From: a virus
Strand: one strand, 5' to 3'
DNA length: 23,249 nucleotides
IMG/VR virus record: IMGVR_UViG_3300027659_000214
Span: 1 to 23,249 of that record
Translations under genes and position numbers: made by a program
Shown here: piece after piece, positions 287 through 21,292 of the stretch
How positions within the stretch are numbered: position 1 is the first letter of the stretch
Layout: every line of letters starts with the position of its first letter
Notes under the pieces: generated by a model
Databases searched by the model: none
Told to the model about the DNA's origin: nothing
Seen by the model: the letters and a program-made list of their open reading frames with translations, nothing else

Positions 287-446
287 CCCAAGTCACACAG
301 ACACAGACGTTAAATCTTGTGCATCTTGCAAATATGATCCAGTAGTTAAGAGAAGCATTGACGATGCTCCTCCTATCTGCTGGACTTGTATAAATACAGC
401 CGTAGTGCTTGAGTTTCCTTTACCAATGTGGACACCTAAAATATGA
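261..446 (+). CDS. Small zinc-ribbon-like protein
   Basis: Predicted 61-residue protein with two CxxC pairs: CASC at residues 20-23 and CWTC at residues 40-43, about 17 residues apart. This is the spacing of a small treble-clef or zinc-ribbon fold. Such proteins in phage early regions are often nucleic-acid or RNA-polymerase binding, but nothing in this sequence shows which applies. The start at 261 lies inside the end of the previous gene with AAAGAG upstream. The stop overlaps the thyX start in an ATGA arrangement at 443-446, so the two are probably translationally coupled. Confidence 0.7.
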   Translation: MNKTRDFISPSHTDTDVKSCASCKYDPVVKRSIDDAPPICWTCINTAVVLEFPLPMWTPKI

Positions 447-1084
447 AGACCTCTCCAATTGAAGTAACCCTTATTGATAGTTGTGGGAACGATTTAAGCG
501 TTGTTAACGCAGCACGAGTATCCTTCCACAAAGAGGCTGCTGAGATGTCTGAGAAGGATGGTAGGCTTTTGAACTACCTTGCCAAGCATAAGCACTTCAG
601 CCCCTTCAATCATGCCTTCCTATCCTTCAGGGTTAAGGCCCCTGTCTTTGTTGCACGGCAATTGGTTAAGCATAAGTTTCTCCCTTGGAATGAAACTTCC
701 AGGCGCTATGTCGATGAAGAACCCGAATACTTCTTTCCAACCTTACTTCGTAAACGTAGTGAAGACAAGAAGCAGGGTAGTGAGGGTGTTGTGTATGGGT
801 CTGACCAATGGCTTGAGGGTGCAGCATATTACGTAAAGCACTTGAACCATATGTACCAGAACATGATTGATGGTGGCGTATGTGCAGAACAAGCACGTAT
901 GTTCCTTCCACAAAATATGATGACCGAATGGATTTGGAGTGGTACTTTAGGTGCTTTTTGTGATATGCTACGTCTGCGTCTGGATGAGCACACACAAGAA
1001 GAAACAAGGCAAGTGGCCTTATTCATTGATGCGGAGATTACCCGCCTATTCCCCGCAAGTTCTGCGGCTTTAAAAGGAGAATGA
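443..1084 (+). CDS. thyX: FAD-dependent thymidylate synthase ThyX
   Basis: Predicted 213-residue flavin-dependent thymidylate synthase. It makes dTMP from dUMP using methylene-tetrahydrofolate and reduced FAD, without needing a separate dihydrofolate reductase. The diagnostic region is residues 72-89, RQLVKHKFLPWNETSRRY, matching the ThyX signature RHRxxSxNExSxR with Lys at both outer basic positions and Pro in place of the first Ser. Further family features are the N-terminal AARVSF (residues 23-28), HFSPFNHA (51-58), and the C-terminal AEQARMFLP and TQEETRQVA blocks. Length is normal for the family (about 210-250). The start overlaps the previous stop (ATGA). It lies in one block with the ribonucleotide reductase gene, consistent with phage-directed dNTP supply. 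Identity is secure; only the catalytic consequence of the altered signature is open. Confidence 0.95.
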   Translation: MKTSPIEVTLIDSCGNDLSVVNAARVSFHKEAAEMSEKDGRLLNYLAKHKHFSPFNHAFLSFRVKAPVFVARQLVKHKFLPWNETSRRYVDEEPEYFFPTLLRKRSEDKKQGSEGVVYGSDQWLEGAAYYVKHLNHMYQNMIDGGVCAEQARMFLPQNMMTEWIWSGTLGAFCDMLRLRLDEHTQEETRQVALFIDAEITRLFPASSAALKGE

Positions 1085-1085
1085 A

Positions 1086-1292
1086 ATGCAAACCTTTCGG
1101 TTTAGTCGTAGTCAAGAGGTAGAAGATGATGAGGCATACATCTTCAACATTCCTCATTCAAACTTTTCTTTTGAAACAGATATGGATGTAACCTATACTG
1201 AAGTTGTAGAGCAATTCTTGTTCTTCCTATCTTCATGCTATGGTTATCCAATTACAGTTGAGATGCTAAGTCGTGAATTCCCCAGTTTCTGA
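1086..1292 (+). CDS. Small hypothetical protein
   Basis: Predicted 68-residue protein starting one base after the thyX stop, with a clear AAAGGAGA ribosome binding site at 1073-1080. The sequence is acidic and rich in aromatic residues, with a predicted helical segment at about residues 36-55 (YTEVVEQFLFFLSSCYGY). It overlaps the HNH gene by 20 bases at its 3' end. I do not recognise a family. The short intergenic gap and strong ribosome binding site support real expression as part of the thyX-nrdJ operon. Confidence 0.65.
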   Translation: MQTFRFSRSQEVEDDEAYIFNIPHSNFSFETDMDVTYTEVVEQFLFFLSSCYGYPITVEMLSREFPSF

Positions 1293-1794
1293 TTGGACAG
1301 AGGGAAGGTTTAATAGTTTTATTGTTAGCACTTTACGTGCTGGAGTGCGAAGATTTCCTAACAAGTGGAAAGCATTAGAGGCAGCAGCACATGGTGTGGG
1401 CCTTAATGAAGCCACGGGTAGGAAGGCTAAACTCTATTTCTGTAATCATTGCTCTAAACTATTCACTGCAAAACACATACAAATAGATCACATTACTCCT
1501 GTTGTTGATCCAGTAGTTGGATTCACAACTTGGGATGATTATATTAGTAGGTTGTTTTGTGAAATTGAAAACTTACAAGCACTTTGCATCAAATGTCACA
1601 AACTAAAAACAGCAGAAGAAAAGCAGACAAGGACGGGCAAGACAGCGTTGAAGACTTCGCTGAAGCCTCGTATGCGTACTCACTCATGCACTTTGAAGAA
1701 GCCCTCAAGAGTGTCAGGTGGGGCCAGAAAGTCTGGAGTGACCTCTCCAGCGAAGCAAAAGAAAAACTTAGGGAATTTGTCAAAAAGGAAATGA
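1273..1794 (+). CDS. HNH endonuclease
   Basis: Predicted 173-residue protein with an HNH nuclease domain. Visible residues are CNHC (C57, C60), the DH pair of IDHITPV (D72, H73), then ENLQALCIKCHK with N100, C105, C108 and H109. The two Cys pairs bind a structural zinc, and the His and Asn residues form the metal-dependent nuclease site in this family. Residues 1-50 are basic and probably bind DNA. The start is a GTG at 1273. From about residue 113 the protein becomes a Lys/Arg/Ser/Thr-rich tail that overlaps out of frame with the 1593-1799 gene, so the tail may be a by-product of that overlap. Such freestanding HNH genes near reductase and thymidylate synthase genes are often homing-type enzymes; that role is inferred. 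Confidence 0.88.
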   Translation: MNSPVSDWTEGRFNSFIVSTLRAGVRRFPNKWKALEAAAHGVGLNEATGRKAKLYFCNHCSKLFTAKHIQIDHITPVVDPVVGFTTWDDYISRLFCEIENLQALCIKCHKLKTAEEKQTRTGKTALKTSLKPRMRTHSCTLKKPSRVSGGARKSGVTSPAKQKKNLGNLSKRK

Positions 1795-1799
1795 AATGA
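1593..1799 (+). CDS. Small hypothetical protein overlapping the HNH gene
   Basis: Predicted 68-residue protein from the ATG at 1593 (a TTG at 1584 is an alternative start). It is read in a different frame from the HNH gene and shares about 200 bases with it. The amino acid pattern looks like a folded helical protein (ASYAYSLMHFEEALKSVRW, then KEKLREFVKKE), while the HNH frame over the same bases gives low-complexity basic sequence. I see no good ribosome binding site, so translation may depend on coupling to the HNH gene. The stop overlaps the next start at 1796-1799 in an ATGA arrangement. The family is not recognised. Confidence 0.55.
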   Translation: MSQTKNSRRKADKDGQDSVEDFAEASYAYSLMHFEEALKSVRWGQKVWSDLSSEAKEKLREFVKKEMK

Positions 1800-1945
1800 T
1801 TATTTGTAGCGTACAACTCATCACTGGATGTATGGTTGGTTTAGAATTCCCTGAACAAGAGGGAATTGTTTGTGTGATTGATCTAGGAATCATTCGCGTA
1901 TTGTTTGAGCGTTATACACCTGAAGAAGAAGGAACACAAGAATGA
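1796..1945 (+). CDS. Small hypothetical protein upstream of nrdJ
   Basis: Predicted 49-residue protein. The ATG at 1796 overlaps the preceding stop (ATGA) and has AAGGA at 1786-1790 five bases upstream, a good ribosome binding site. The TGA at 1943-1945 overlaps the nrdJ start at 1942. This four-base coupling on both sides is strong evidence for a real gene despite its size. The sequence is strand-like and hydrophobic (CVIDLGIIRVLFERY at about residues 26-40) with an acidic C-terminus (PEEEGTQE). It resembles small SH3-like phage proteins only in general character. No function is proposed. Confidence 0.7.
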   Translation: MIICSVQLITGCMVGLEFPEQEGIVCVIDLGIIRVLFERYTPEEEGTQE

Positions 1946-3849
1946 CGGCAACAGCAACACCTTGGTCAACCCTTGGTTACTTGGTTTATAAGCGTACCTA
2001 TTCACGCCGCATTGATGAGGCTAATGTTGACTCGCGCTCAGAGGAATTTAATGAGACAGTTGAACGTGTCATCAACAGTTGTGAGAAGCAACTCAAGTGT
2101 GAGTTCACACCAATAGAGGAAGACCGTCTACGATGCTATTTGACGGGTCTTAAAGGCTCTGTGGCAGGACGTTTCTGGTGGCAGATGGGTACAGCCACAG
2201 TCGATAAACTAGGGCTCTCCAGCCTCCAGAATTGTGCCTTCACAACTGTTGACAATCCAATTCGACCTTTCACATGGGCAATGGATATGCTCATGCTTGG
2301 ATCAGGTGTCGGCTATAACATTCAAAGGAAAAGTGTTGATAAACTACCACCTGTCAATAGTTCTTTCACTTGTCCTACGCGCGTCGATAGCAGTGACGCT
2401 GATTACATCGTCCCTGATAGCCGTGAAGGATGGGTTAAACTCCTGGGTAAGACGCTTAAAGCAGCGTTTCTAAGTGATAACAAATCCACCTTCACCTACA
2501 GCACAAAGATGATTCGTGGCAAGGGTGCTCCTATCAAGGGTTTTGGTGGTGTTGCATCAGGCCCTGAAGACCTTTGCTGGGGTATTGAGCAGATCAGCAA
2601 GGTGCTGGAGAAACGTGCTGGTAAGAAGGTACGTCCTATTGATGTGCTTGACGTTATGAACATCATTGGTGCTGTTGTTGTTGCTGGTAACGTGCGCCGC
2701 AGTGCCCAGATTGCAATTGGAGATGCTGACGATGTGGAATATCTACTTGCGAAACGATGGGACTTGGGCAATATTCCCTCATGGAGGGCTATGTCTAATA
2801 ACTCCGTGGTCTGTGATGATATCAGTGACCTTCACGAGTTCTTCTGGGATGGTTATGAAGGTAAAGGAGAACCCTACGGTCTTATCAACCTTAAACTCTC
2901 AAGAAAAGTTGGTCGTCTGGGAGAGTCTCAATACCCTGACCCAGAAGTTCAGGGATACAACCCATGCGCTGAACAGTCACTTGCAAACTATGAAACTTGC
3001 TGCCTAGCAGAAGTATTCCTACCTAACATTTCCTCTAAAGAGGAATTTTTAGATGTATGTAAACTCCTCTATCGCATCAACAAACACTCACTACGTCTTC
3101 CTTGCCACCATGAAGAAACACAAACCATTGTTCATGCTAATATGCGTATGGGTATTGGCATCACTGGTGTTCTTCAGGCAACTGAGGAACAAAAGAGTTG
3201 GCTAAGTGACACCTATGAACGTCTACGTGAATACGATAAAACCTACAGTATGCGTCATGGTTGGCCTGAGTCAATTAAGTTGACAACTGTTAAGCCGTCA
3301 GGTACATTAAGTCTCCTACCTGGAGTTACACCGGGAGTACACCCCGGCTATGCACAATATATGATTCGGAGGGTACGAATTGCATCAAATCATCCATTGG
3401 TTGAAACTTGTCGTAATCACGGTTATGATGTTGAGTATCAGCGTAATTTTGATGGTAGTGAAGATCGTGGAACTGTTGTCGTATCCTTTCCGTTTAGTTA
3501 TCCGGAAGGTACTAAACTAGCCAAGGACATGACTGCCATTGACCAACTTGAAGCAGTTAAGTGGCTACAAGAGGTGTGGAGTGATAACAGTGTCTCTTGC
3601 ACTGTCTACTACCGCAAGGAGGAACTACCTGAGATTAAGAAGTATTTGAAGAAGCATTACAAGGGTTGCCACAAGAGTCTGTCATTCTTGCTGCACAGTG
3701 AACACGGGTTCCAGCAAGCACCTCTAGAGGAAATTACCAAAGAGGAGTTTGATAAGATGATTGCCAAGTCAACCCTCATCACTGCAATCTCTAGTGTTGA
3801 GATGGATGGTGGTGATGAATGTGCAACTGGTGCTTGTCCTGTTCGTTAA
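1942..3849 (+). CDS. nrdJ: Adenosylcobalamin-dependent (class II) ribonucleoside-triphosphate reductase
   Basis: Predicted 635-residue monomeric class II ribonucleotide reductase, which reduces ribonucleotides to 2'-deoxyribonucleotides using coenzyme B12 to start a thiyl radical. It lines up along its length with the Lactobacillus leichmannii enzyme: WSTLGYLVYKRTYSR near the N-terminus; SLQNCAF with C98 (first cysteine of the active-site pair); GVASGP and VVAGNVRRSA; NPCAEQSLANYETC with C342 as thiyl-radical cysteine, E344 as catalytic glutamate and C353 as the partner of C98; TVKPSGTLSLL; and the tail CATGACPVR with C627 and C632 as the shuttle pair. All catalytic residues are present. At 635 versus 739 residues it is compact and lacks an ATP-cone. 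The start overlaps the previous stop. Being oxygen-independent, the enzyme needs no partner subunit, but it does require host B12. Confidence 0.95.
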   Translation: MTATATPWSTLGYLVYKRTYSRRIDEANVDSRSEEFNETVERVINSCEKQLKCEFTPIEEDRLRCYLTGLKGSVAGRFWWQMGTATVDKLGLSSLQNCAFTTVDNPIRPFTWAMDMLMLGSGVGYNIQRKSVDKLPPVNSSFTCPTRVDSSDADYIVPDSREGWVKLLGKTLKAAFLSDNKSTFTYSTKMIRGKGAPIKGFGGVASGPEDLCWGIEQISKVLEKRAGKKVRPIDVLDVMNIIGAVVVAGNVRRSAQIAIGDADDVEYLLAKRWDLGNIPSWRAMSNNSVVCDDISDLHEFFWDGYEGKGEPYGLINLKLSRKVGRLGESQYPDPEVQGYNPCAEQSLANYETCCLAEVFLPNISSKEEFLDVCKLLYRINKHSLRLPCHHEETQTIVHANMRMGIGITGVLQATEEQKSWLSDTYERLREYDKTYSMRHGWPESIKLTTVKPSGTLSLLPGVTPGVHPGYAQYMIRRVRIASNHPLVETCRNHGYDVEYQRNFDGSEDRGTVVVSFPFSYPEGTKLAKDMTAIDQLEAVKWLQEVWSDNSVSCTVYYRKEELPEIKKYLKKHYKGCHKSLSFLLHSEHGFQQAPLEEITKEEFDKMIAKSTLITAISSVEMDGGDECATGACPVR

Positions 3850-18015: not shown

Positions 18016-18939
18016 TTAGGCTGGAACTGCTAGAGCAACAGCAGAATAATCACGTAGTTCTGCAACACCATAAAGAGTGTCAGCAGTAAAGAGACTACCT
18101 AAATATTCTTGCTTGTACTGAGTCTGGGTACGTACTTCCTTTTGAGTGGCAAGTACACCAAAGTCACGATGACCTAGTAGGCAAATACGGCAAGCAGTTG
18201 AACCAGAGGTGGTATCAGCATTGTTGGTAACGAATACGGGAACTCCGTACACATTACCAACTTCACCGTTACGGATGGTATTAGAACCACCAGTTTCACC
18301 AACAAAAGCCTGTTCAGTGAAACGTGCAATACCCAGTAGGGTGTTACGGGTTGAAGGAGGAACAACCAGGAAACGACCGTCCATAGGTACATCATTGTCA
18401 TCTAGACGCTGAATTGAACGGCGAATGGCGGCATCAGTTAGAGCACCAAGACCAGTGTTAGCACCAGCAACATAAGCAGTAGTACCATCAGTACCTGAAA
18501 AAGCACCGCTATATGCTGTGGTGTTAGTACCACCTTGAACCTGACGGCCAAGTGCAATTAGGCTGGAGTCAACCTGACGGGCAAGTGCATAACCAGCATC
18601 ATCAGTGTAAAACTGACGCATAGAGGTTAGTGCTTGAGTCTCAACGATGTCTTCAATAAGAATTGAATACTCAAAGTGAAGGTTGAGTGAAACCTGAACT
18701 TCAGTTGCAGTATCAGTTACTAGGGTAACTTGTGCTTGTGTTCCCTTAGCAGTTGCAGAGCCTCGACCTGGTTTTGGAATGTTGAGGGTATCACCCTTCT
18801 TACCAACCATGTTGATTTTCTTAATAAGATTTGCAAGAACAAGATTACGCTTGTATGTTGCAACAACTTCGTCACTCCAAATTTGTGGAATGAATTTATC
18901 AGCAGTCGTAACTGTCTGATGGTTTGAACCTAAAGCCAT
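18016..18939 (-). CDS. Major capsid protein (HK97 fold)
   Basis: Predicted 307-residue major head protein. It resembles a podovirus capsid family starting MALGSNHQTVTT..FIPQIWSDEV, with NLVLANLIKKINMVGKKGDT (residues 32-51) for the N-arm/E-loop region, EYSILIEDIVETQALTSMRQ and YTDDAGYALARQVDSSLIAL for the spine helix, and DNDVPMDGRFLVVPPSTRN followed by GEVGNVYGVPVFVTNN for the P- and A-domains. Size is in the usual 300-350 range. It follows the scaffold gene by 21 bases (AGGAGAATATA before the ATG), and a strong terminator follows it. This scaffold-capsid order is standard, so the call is firm even though detailed homology was not computed. Confidence 0.9.
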   Translation of the reverse strand: MALGSNHQTVTTADKFIPQIWSDEVVATYKRNLVLANLIKKINMVGKKGDTLNIPKPGRGSATAKGTQAQVTLVTDTATEVQVSLNLHFEYSILIEDIVETQALTSMRQFYTDDAGYALARQVDSSLIALGRQVQGGTNTTAYSGAFSGTDGTTAYVAGANTGLGALTDAAIRRSIQRLDDNDVPMDGRFLVVPPSTRNTLLGIARFTEQAFVGETGGSNTIRNGEVGNVYGVPVFVTNNADTTSGSTACRICLLGHRDFGVLATQKEVRTQTQYKQEYLGSLFTADTLYGVAELRDYSAVALAVPA

Positions 18940-18960: not shown

Positions 18961-19740
18961 TTATTTAACTCGACCCTCGTTATAAGCCTTGATGATTTCA
19001 TCACCTAGTTGCTCATAGCGATCTGGGTCTGTCATACGTAAGCGGATAAGATCAGCACGGCGATATGTCTTCTTTGAGGTTTCACCTGATCCACCAACAT
19101 CCACGCCAGCAGCCTTTAGAGCCTTTGTACGCGATTGTTTTCCAGCATCTGACACTTCCTTTGACCTGACACCTTTAATCTGCTTATAGGTCGATAGAAG
19201 CTCATCTGCCGTTTCAAAATTGTAATTAGTATCTGCATCTTCATACATACGCATACGTACTGGTGATGCATTTACCCAAGCAATAAAATCCCCATCTTGA
19301 ACAATATTCCCAAAGTCAGGATGCTTGTTAGTAAGCTGACTCTGAAGGTTCATCTGCCTCATTTGTTGTGAGGCTTGCTTTGCCGCTTTAATGTCTGGAT
19401 GGTTCTCTAAAGCATTTTGAATGGCTTTTTGAGGGTTCTCAAAGAAATCAATATCTGTTTCTTCTTGTGCAGGTTTTACTTGTTTCTGCGAGAGTTGTTG
19501 TTTCAACAATTCATCAGCAAGTTTACGAACTTCACCAACCTCTTGTGCTTGCCTACCAATAAGCTGTTCAGCCTCTTGGTGCATCTTCACAATGTCTTCT
19601 AGGTTTTTGCCCCGATACTTGTCGGGAACCTTAGAGACTACGGGTTGTTCTGATTCTTCAAATTCATCATCTTCAGAATCTAGTTCATCAACTTCTTCTG
19701 TCTGTTGATCCAATTCGTCATCATTTTCAATAAAAGCCAT
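18961..19740 (-). CDS. Head scaffolding protein
   Basis: Predicted 259-residue protein with a very acidic N-terminus (residues 5-32, e.g. ENDDELDQQTEEVDELDSED), then KVPDKYRGKNLEDIVKMHQE and a long helix (AEQLIGRQAQEVGEVRKLAD), ending in a basic C-terminal region (residues ~200-259, KKTYRRADLIRLRMTDPDRY). Acidic head, coiled middle and basic tail is the usual plan of podovirus scaffolds, which shape the procapsid and then leave; the basic tail binds capsid. It sits immediately upstream of the capsid gene. A leader with two GTAA-loop hairpins precedes it, so expression may be regulated separately from the upstream genes. Confidence 0.85.
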   Translation of the reverse strand: MAFIENDDELDQQTEEVDELDSEDDEFEESEQPVVSKVPDKYRGKNLEDIVKMHQEAEQLIGRQAQEVGEVRKLADELLKQQLSQKQVKPAQEETDIDFFENPQKAIQNALENHPDIKAAKQASQQMRQMNLQSQLTNKHPDFGNIVQDGDFIAWVNASPVRMRMYEDADTNYNFETADELLSTYKQIKGVRSKEVSDAGKQSRTKALKAAGVDVGGSGETSKKTYRRADLIRLRMTDPDRYEQLGDEIIKAYNEGRVK

Positions 19741-19798: not shown

Positions 19799-19838
19799 CA
19801 AAATAAAAGAAAACAATCGGACTATTAGTTCCCCGATT
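19799..19838 (-). terminator. Terminator-like hairpin ahead of the scaffold gene
   Basis: On the - strand AATCGG (19833-19838) pairs with CCGATT (19815-19820), plus a G-U pair, and is followed by GTTTTCTTTTATTTTG. The 5' arm lies in the last codons of the zinc-ribbon gene. The AT-rich T-tract and moderate stem suggest partial termination, so the scaffold and capsid genes need read-through or their own promoter, for which I find no clear consensus. Confidence 0.55.
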
Positions 19839-20067
19839 CTGCGTTTTTCTTTCTCTCTTGACTGAGTTTCTCAGCCCTAACCCTTGCCCACTTATCTGCT
19901 GCCCCAGGAAAACTTCCAGTAATCCCTTCAAGTTTGATAGTTGGACAAGAAATTATTCTTTTTGCTTCTTCACCACAAATCTTGCAAGGAACTACCCTAT
20001 CTTCTGAGTTAACAAAGGATTCAAACATATGGAAGTCTTCACACATAAAGTCATAAAAACCCCTCAT
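19825..20067 (-). CDS. FmdB-like zinc-ribbon protein
   Basis: Predicted 80-residue protein: MRGFYDFMCEDFHMFESFV, then VPCKICGEEAKRIIS with C28 and C31, matching the phage variant of the FmdB putative regulatory zinc-ribbon family. The first metal pair looks like C9 with H13 instead of two cysteines. The C-terminal half (ITGSFPGAADKWARVRAEKL) is the usual tail of the phage version, often found between portal/terminase and scaffold genes. It may bind nucleic acid or another head protein; its role is unknown. The start overlaps the previous stop (ATGA). Part of a terminator-like hairpin lies in its 3' end. Confidence 0.8.
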   Translation of the reverse strand: MRGFYDFMCEDFHMFESFVNSEDRVVPCKICGEEAKRIISCPTIKLEGITGSFPGAADKWARVRAEKLSQERKKNAESGN

Positions 20068-20303
20068 TCGTCTTCTCCGTTTAACTGGTTGTAGGATTCC
20101 TCACAAATTTTCTTGCGAGTAAGAATCAAAGTGAGTATGTCTAGTTGTCCTTTTTTGAAGAATAAATCTTCAGCATTTAAAGTATTAGACACACTATCAA
20201 CAGTTTCTCGTAGATTTTCCATATCTTCTACAAAGAATTTCCATCCTTCAGTAGCAATCATAGAAAATGTTTCTTCGTAATACTTCTGTAGTTCCTTGTC
20301 CAT
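20064..20303 (-). CDS. Small helical protein, first gene after the dyad-containing promoter
   Basis: Predicted 79-residue protein, acidic and almost wholly helical, with FSMIATEGWKFFVEDMENLR (residues 14-33) and LFFKKGQLDILTLILTRKKI. The ...ATEGWK.F..D.......(K)GQL..L..IL pattern is seen in small phage proteins near head genes, function unknown. It is the first gene after the promoter at 20333-20362, with AAGGAG upstream of ATG 20303, and is coupled to the zinc-ribbon gene by an ATGA overlap. It may act in head assembly, but this is inferred from position only. Confidence 0.75.
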   Translation of the reverse strand: MDKELQKYYEETFSMIATEGWKFFVEDMENLRETVDSVSNTLNAEDLFFKKGQLDILTLILTRKKICEESYNQLNGEDE

Positions 20304-20332
20304 TATGGGGAAACTCCTTTATTGTTATACTT

Positions 20333-20362
20333 ATTATACTACATATTATAGTAGTATGTCAA
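20333..20362 (-). promoter_or_regulatory. Sigma70-type promoter for the head operon
   Basis: On the - strand TTGACA (20357-20362) and TATAAT (20333-20338) are both exact consensus hexamers separated by 18 bases, in the 83-base gap between the repeat protein stop and the 20303 gene. A second TATAAT at 20345-20350 is too close to the -35 to be used with it. Expected transcription starts near 20325 and runs leftward into the 79-aa, zinc-ribbon, scaffold and capsid genes. Confidence 0.75.
20336..20357. repeat. Inverted repeat inside the promoter (possible operator)
   Basis: ATACTAC (20336-20342) and GTAGTAT (20351-20357) form a perfect seven-base dyad around an eight-base centre. It covers the promoter spacer and touches both the -10 and -35 hexamers. 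A protein bound here would block or modulate RNA polymerase, so an operator role is plausible. No repressor gene is visible in the window. Confidence 0.55.
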
Positions 20363-20386: not shown

Positions 20387-21292
20387 TTAAGGATATACGA
20401 TTGGGTCTTTATACAAGATTTGCCATGCTGTACCTGTATACCACTTTAATACGTAAGTTTGTGACTGTACTGGTAATGAGATGTTGTATTCACCAAAACC
20501 AGCGTTTAATGTTATCTGCCTTCCAATGGTTGCTGCTGATCCAGTGATGTTATAAACACCATTAGACAGCGTTATATTTCTAGTTACAGTTAAAGAACAA
20601 TCGCTTCCTGTAATTACAAAAGAAGCTGGAGATGCTACAAGGTTTAGAGTTCTAGCAAGTGTTGCAGCACTTCCTGTTAAAGTGTAACTGCCGTTTTGAA
20701 GATTTAGATTCCTAGAAACTACTAAACTAGCAGCAGCACCCGTTAGGTTATAAGAACCACTATTTGCATCTAGTACAGGTACAAAACTAACTGGTGTATA
20801 AGTTAGAGTAGCATCTACACCTGTAATGGTGTAGGAACCAGAAGCACTATTTAATACGCTTGCTGCTGATAGAGTTGCAGCAAACCCTGTAAGTGAATAA
20901 GAAGCAGGAGAACTGTTTAATACTTTTGTTGCTACTAATATTGCAGGAGAACCTGTAATGGCATAAGAACTAGAAGCACTGTTTAATATCTTCCCTGTTG
21001 AAAGTGTTGCAGGGAAACCAGTAACAGAATAACTACCTGAACCTAATAAAAGATTTCTAGTTAATGCTAATGTAGCGGGGAAACCACTTACTAAGTAAGA
21101 ACCACTTCCAGCATCTAATGTAAGAGCACCACCAATGGGAGCAGCAGGTATTTGTAACTCTGTAAAAGATACCTGAATATTGATTGCATAAAGGTAATCA
21201 GATAAAAGTACTACTCCCGCAGGGCCATTATCCCATGTATCAGAGCCTCCCCTTATACCTCTTGGGAGGTCAATATTAGGCTGCTTAACCAT
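20387..21292 (-). CDS. Repeat-built structural protein (ten ~22-residue beta repeats)
   Basis: Predicted 301-residue protein. Residues 1-58 form a non-repeat head (MVKQPNIDLPRGIRGGSDTW; DNGPAGVVLLSDYLYAINIQ). Residues 59-273 are ten repeats of the form LxxxSGSYxxTGxxATLxxxxx, each 22 residues except one of 27 and a short last unit. A 28-residue tail contains YVLKWYTGTAWQILYKDP, similar to ends of fibre proteins. Regular Gly-Ser-Tyr and Thr-Gly positions indicate stacked beta strands, as in a solenoid or fibre shaft. Repeats of this type occur in uncharacterised phage proteins. It lies between the 271-aa structural-type gene and the head promoter. A fibre or head-surface role is inferred. The start has only a weak ribosome binding site and probably depends on the upstream gene. 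Confidence 0.75.
   Translation of the reverse strand: MVKQPNIDLPRGIRGGSDTWDNGPAGVVLLSDYLYAINIQVSFTELQIPAAPIGGALTLDAGSGSYLVSGFPATLALTRNLLLGSGSYSVTGFPATLSTGKILNSASSSYAITGSPAILVATKVLNSSPASYSLTGFAATLSAASVLNSASGSYTITGVDATLTYTPVSFVPVLDANSGSYNLTGAAASLVVSRNLNLQNGSYTLTGSAATLARTLNLVASPASFVITGSDCSLTVTRNITLSNGVYNITGSAATIGRQITLNAGFGEYNISLPVQSQTYVLKWYTGTAWQILYKDPIVYP
20474..21118 (-). repeat. Array of ~66-base tandem repeats coding the GSY/TG units
   Basis: The stretch encodes ten tandem units of 66 bases (one of 81, last one partial) within the 301-residue protein. Units are clearly related in amino acid sequence but well diverged in DNA, which suggests an old expansion kept by structural selection. The 81-base unit carries five extra residues (within TYTPVSFVPV). 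Confidence 0.75.

Follow-up and report, generated by a model that had tools for sequence, protein, structure and literature searches.

A conserved host-type promoter ahead of a phage head operon, and a palindrome in its spacer that may be a repressor site

The head genes of the phage studied here stand behind a promoter of the kind read by bacterial RNA polymerase, and the spacer of this promoter holds a perfect palindrome, which raises the question of which polymerase transcribes these genes and whether a protein at the palindrome sets the time at which it does so. To our knowledge, late-gene timing in T7-like phages that have no polymerase of their own has been little studied. The window, that is, the whole stretch of DNA analysed, comprises positions 1 to 23,249 (23,249 nucleotides) of IMG/VR record IMGVR_UViG_3300027659_000214, from an uncultured phage of the T7 supergroup. 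Its head operon lies on the minus strand and contains four genes in the order ORF79 (20064–20303), which encodes a predicted four-helix protein kept across the family, an 80-residue zinc-ribbon protein with a weak FmdB-like match (19825–20067), the head scaffolding protein (18961–19740) and the major capsid protein (18016–18939). The upstream gene (20387–21292, minus strand) runs in the same direction, ends 24 nt before the −35 hexamer and encodes an internally repeated protein of 301 residues. Its repeats of about 24 residues are SGSYTITG-like and vary in number, since the counterpart in the relative L082 has only 150 residues. Elsewhere in the window (443–3849), the late arm faces convergent genes for a ThyX-like protein, an HNH endonuclease and a class II ribonucleotide reductase; the HNH gene was identified by search and the other two were read from the sequence. 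Cultured phages in the phage collection contain no DNA-level relative of the head genes.

Read on the minus strand from 20362 to 20333, the promoter is TTGACA-N18-TATAAT, a match to the consensus at 12 of 12 positions, with the −35 hexamer at 20357–20362, the −10 hexamer at 20333–20338 and the 18-nt spacer at 20356–20339. The first-pass annotation had described an exact-consensus promoter here, and both its sequence and its coordinates are exact, the site being on the minus strand. The hexamers are 18 nt apart, within the spacing of 16–18 nt at which near-consensus hexamers mark a sigma-70-type promoter. The position of the −10 hexamer predicts a transcription start 6–8 nt further on (20325–20327, minus strand), and the start codon of ORF79 follows 30 nt past the −10, with the ribosome-binding site AAAGGAG (20314–20320, minus strand, located by eye) in between.

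The position of this promoter ahead of the head operon is conserved in the phage family. Loci were drawn from 80 capsid relatives, from 80 relatives found with a second query (mostly the same loci) and from five pattern matches, and the 87 loci in which ORF79 has at least 60 nt upstream were counted. A promoter matching at least 10 of 12 consensus positions precedes ORF79 in 58 of the 87, a level reached by 175 of 4350 resampled upstream stretches (4%). The site had also been called unusually perfect, which is apt for the window, where it is the sole 12/12 match and first-order resampling expects 0.017, but less so for the family, in which 25 of the 87 loci likewise have a 12/12 match there. 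The TGn extension present in 50 of the 58 loci with a promoter is absent at the window's −10. After removal of copies and addition of a third, more distant set, whose query retrieved in the main a different subfamily that has no promoter here, 55 of 119 distinct loci have one. In L003, L011, L039 and L043, which have no head promoter, there is no room for it because the upstream gene reaches to about 20 nt from ORF79. Among six long relatives, several also have similar promoters in front of a tail gene and of the first late gene. In cultured phages, the 33-mer of the promoter matches nothing better than degenerate promoter-like stretches, most of them in phages of Firmicutes and Prevotella (three inspected).

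The gene content of the family likewise points to the host polymerase. A T7-type RNA polymerase (PF00940), the gene by which Autographiviridae are recognised, is found in none of 12 long family records of 31–41 kb, with T7 itself detected as control at E=1e-109; nor does PF00940 match in the window, which is a fragment. G005, a complete-looking relative with terminal repeats of 127 bases, encodes a T7-type helicase-primase, a family A DNA polymerase, a 5′-3′ exonuclease and endonuclease I, as well as a class II ribonucleotide reductase. The proposal that the head operon is transcribed by host RNA polymerase rather than by a phage polymerase as in T7 is supported by the retention of the promoter and by the absence of the polymerase gene, and we regard it as very probable that the head operon has a host-type promoter. 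T7-supergroup phages without an RNA polymerase are known, and in excerpts of PMC6129581 and PMC6775973 the phages Pf-WMP3, Pf-WMP4, PP, A-4L and SIO1 share with this family the combination of T7-type replication and virion genes without a phage RNA polymerase. The window's capsid protein is 27–37% identical to its best cyanophage matches, and A-4L, Pf-WMP3 and TR020 (Saffermanviridae) have the order portal-scaffold-capsid without the two small genes of this family. No site in the regions read of these three phages reaches 10/12 as a promoter; in CHP58 two overlapping promoters of this quality lie elsewhere.

The spacer palindrome, a candidate operator, is ATACTAC-N8-GTAGTAT at 20336–20357, with arms at 20351–20357 and 20336–20342 separated by an 8-nt gap. 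It overlaps one base of the −35 and three of the −10, exactly the seven-base inverted repeat, filling the spacer and touching both hexamers, that the first-pass annotation had reported. Taken alone, the dyad is only mildly improbable, because 2–3% of such spacers reach 7-bp arms: perfect arms of this length arise in 816 of 40000 random spacers of family composition and in 1243 of 40000 shuffles of the window's own spacer, and a slightly longer shuffled stretch reaches them in 900 of 20000 cases. A search for further copies, suggested together with the original observation, finds none with up to two mismatches in the window. At three mismatches there are four including the site itself against 1.3 expected, which is near chance in the window as in L082, and an operator array was rejected.

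The dyad also recurs elsewhere in the family. A scan of 1.28 Mb of family DNA, with overlapping loci kept in, finds the exact pattern TACTAC-N4..12-GTAGTA at 8 distinct sites, and at 7 of the 8 the recurrent dyad lies inside a promoter of at least 10/12, always with a gap of 7 or 8; three of these 7 are one orthologous portal site. Of 43 sites with one mismatch, the sole one in a promoter is the window's own site read in an alternative way. At the head promoter, 5 of 55 promoters carry the dyad (the window, L082, L109, L123 and L169), where position frequencies of 49 non-carrier promoters predict 4e-5 carriers in 55, and the same dyad is found at the portal-gene promoter of L048, L122 and L130. 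The window and L082 have an identical intergenic region, so this pair shows nothing. To account for the carriers, the capsid tree needs 3 changes and the ORF79 tree 4, and supported branches force every one of them. The ORF79 tree, however, places L109, L123 and L169 in one clade, which weakens the capsid-tree argument for independent origins and leaves two origins at the head promoter as the safe count. ACAAAA/TTTTGT arms likewise come back in 2 of 14 promoter clusters, which equals the number for TACTAC.

The most telling comparison is with close relatives of the window, which have a different palindrome at the same place. With ORF79 as query, six contigs (L299–L304) were obtained whose ORF79 is 89–95% identical and which retain both hexamers and the 18-nt spacing; in these the window's dyad is replaced by ATTATACTA-N7-TAGTATAAT, with 9-bp arms. 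L299 differs from the window at five spacer bases, and in all six contigs the left half-site is displaced by 3 bp. Arms of 9 bp are reached by 220 of 20000 shuffles of the L299 spacer and 73 of 20000 of the L304 spacer, and 978 of 40000 trials with five random substitutions in the window's spacer produce arms of at least 8. A single rigid dimer is hard to fit to both palindromes because symmetry is kept while the half-site spacing shifts by 3 bp. Since 50 of 55 promoters are without it, the idea that the dyad is strictly conserved in the family was rejected. A dyad not conserved in relatives had been named in advance as evidence against the proposal, and this applies by half: most family promoters lack it and the close relatives have another, while the arms recur in a distant clade.

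These observations have to be weighed against explanations in which the palindrome has no regulatory role. One is that the site is a plain strong host promoter whose dyad arose by chance from having an AT-rich spacer between TTGACA and TATAAT, noticed as the extreme of many; the frequency of 7-bp arms among such spacers, the many family promoters without the dyad and the free variation of the spacer in close relatives all fit this. We nevertheless consider it unlikely, though a serious competitor, since a distant clade and a second promoter have the same specific arms against the very low expectation given above, and inverted repeats are generally enriched at family promoters, where 6 of 30 clusters, which are not fully independent, fall below p 0.05 with a combined p of 1.5e-4. 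Alternatively, recombination between phages may have spread a mobile promoter cassette whose symmetry has no role here. The promoters of L109, L123 and L169 and the portal promoter of L048 do share ACTACTTTT amid otherwise unrelated flanks, and the head region recombines, because the capsid and ORF79 trees conflict on L169 and L007-type loci. Transfer as a block accords poorly with the window's loop, TATAATAT, which is unlike the TTTT-type loops although all 12 core arm bases agree, or with the comparison of the L048 portal promoter (3208) and the L319 head promoter, in which 5 of 5 differences fall in the arms and none in loop or flanks, so that the arms change as a unit; we judge a cassette improbable. 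The head promoters of L169 and L161 have spacers that are alike except in the arms, which are TACTAC/GTAGTA in L169 and AAGTGTT-N16-AACACTT-like in the L007/L161 type.

The symmetry might instead serve transcription in both directions, with the dyad mirroring the −10 region for a polymerase that also initiates on the opposite strand. An excerpt of PMC12825309 describes bidirectional promoters as ubiquitous among prokaryotes, and 7 of 35 family promoter clusters do have an opposite-strand promoter with 17-nt spacing and TGn, interleaved with the head promoter. Such sigma-70-like promoters on the opposite strand upstream of ORF79 occur in L002, L016, L026, L028, L040, L051 and L055. In the window itself, by contrast, the opposite strand does not stand out from shuffles (p 0.50), and we think this explanation very improbable.

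A protein that could bind the dyad was sought in the family. None was found among the 10 window proteins scanned, 20 proteins of the G005 early region include no helix-turn-helix (HTH) protein by Pfam, and the small DNA-binding protein that the first-pass annotation proposed to look for is accordingly missing from both sets. The G005 proteins without homologs in five other relatives include no obvious regulator candidate. In the family records tested, most of which are fragments, neither HTH_26 nor HTH_3 reaches the cut-off; in G007 one HTH match stays below it (14.8 bits vs 22). ORF79 was rejected as the regulator on account of its predicted four-helix structure; at an E value of 0.001 or better it matches three uncharacterised viral proteins only and nothing in the PDB. 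The suggestion that a protein switches the promoter through the dyad thus fares unevenly: the arms turn up again in a distant clade and at another late promoter much more often than chance predicts, but the dyad is swapped in close relatives and the proteins scanned include no candidate to bind it.

Outside the family, the same arms lead to a repressor group. Public viral contigs contain 43 stretches, many of them near copies of each other, in which the dyad has a −35 in front; they are strongly phased, and with permuted arms the counts are 19 and 2. The dyad promoter adjoins an XRE gene whose helix is of the TGIRPGT type, a motif that we picked after inspecting the loci, at 6 of the 43 viral loci (three lineages), at 1 of 43 bacterial genome loci (a Clostridiales contig) and at 0 of 19 controls. 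In L096, L103, L111, L114, L129, L134 and L185, TTGACA-TACTAC-N7-GTAG-TATAAT adjoins XRE genes with this helix and is, judging from the sequences, likely to be the operator of the TGIRPGT-type XRE repressor group. TACTAC-N7-GTAGTA promoters near such genes therefore offer a ready operator prediction for that group. These XRE (HTH_26-type) dyad promoters have the same arms and the same placement as in the window, but a gap of 7 and a spacer of 17 against 8 and 18, and the family records tested yielded no such gene. In the control scan (L138–L156), the permuted dyad ATACATC-N6-GATGTAT fills promoter spacers in many phages in one fixed phase and is probably another spacer operator, so the architecture of a spacer-filling dyad is common. 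A literature search turned up no report of late promoters with operators and yielded nothing to take up on TACTAC operators. The BlaI/MecI operator has TACTAC/GTAGTA half-sites with a 4-bp gap; its half-site is similar to that of the window dyad, whose gap is 8.

Steric repressors use inverted repeats that lie between and touch the −35 and −10, and the window dyad is placed in the same manner as in sigma-70 spacer-operator promoters, although no repressor for it was found in the proteins scanned. On balance, we favour a head-operon promoter that would be read by host sigma-70 polymerase, with the dyad as a possible operator for a dimeric regulator; whether the dyad is a protein-binding site at all appears evenly poised. 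The palindrome may be a repressor site because it recurs in some distant relatives, though it is absent from most. A dimer at a spacer operator would extend over the spacer into the first half of the −10 and thereby keep sigma out. Under this model, host RNA polymerase with a sigma-70-type factor would transcribe the head operon, and in the window's lineage and one distant clade a dimer bound at the spacer dyad ATACTAC-N7/8-GTAGTAT would occupy DNA required by sigma. Most likely, such a dimeric regulator, encoded by phage or host, would repress head transcription sterically and might be lost or titrated later in infection so that head transcription opens; the operator may be replaced rapidly as lineages diverge. 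The conserved promoter, with palindromes that come back in some lineages and change in others, marks one short stretch of DNA where late-gene timing in T7-like phages without a polymerase is open to test.

A wider proposal, which we hold only tentatively and consider doubtful, is that head-gene timing at the host-type promoter is set by fast-turnover palindromic operators, each with its own phage or host regulator: ATACTAC-N8-GTAGTAT in the window, the 9-bp palindrome in its sister contigs and other dyads elsewhere. If true, apparently virulent phages would bear lineage-specific repressor-operator pairs on a late promoter.
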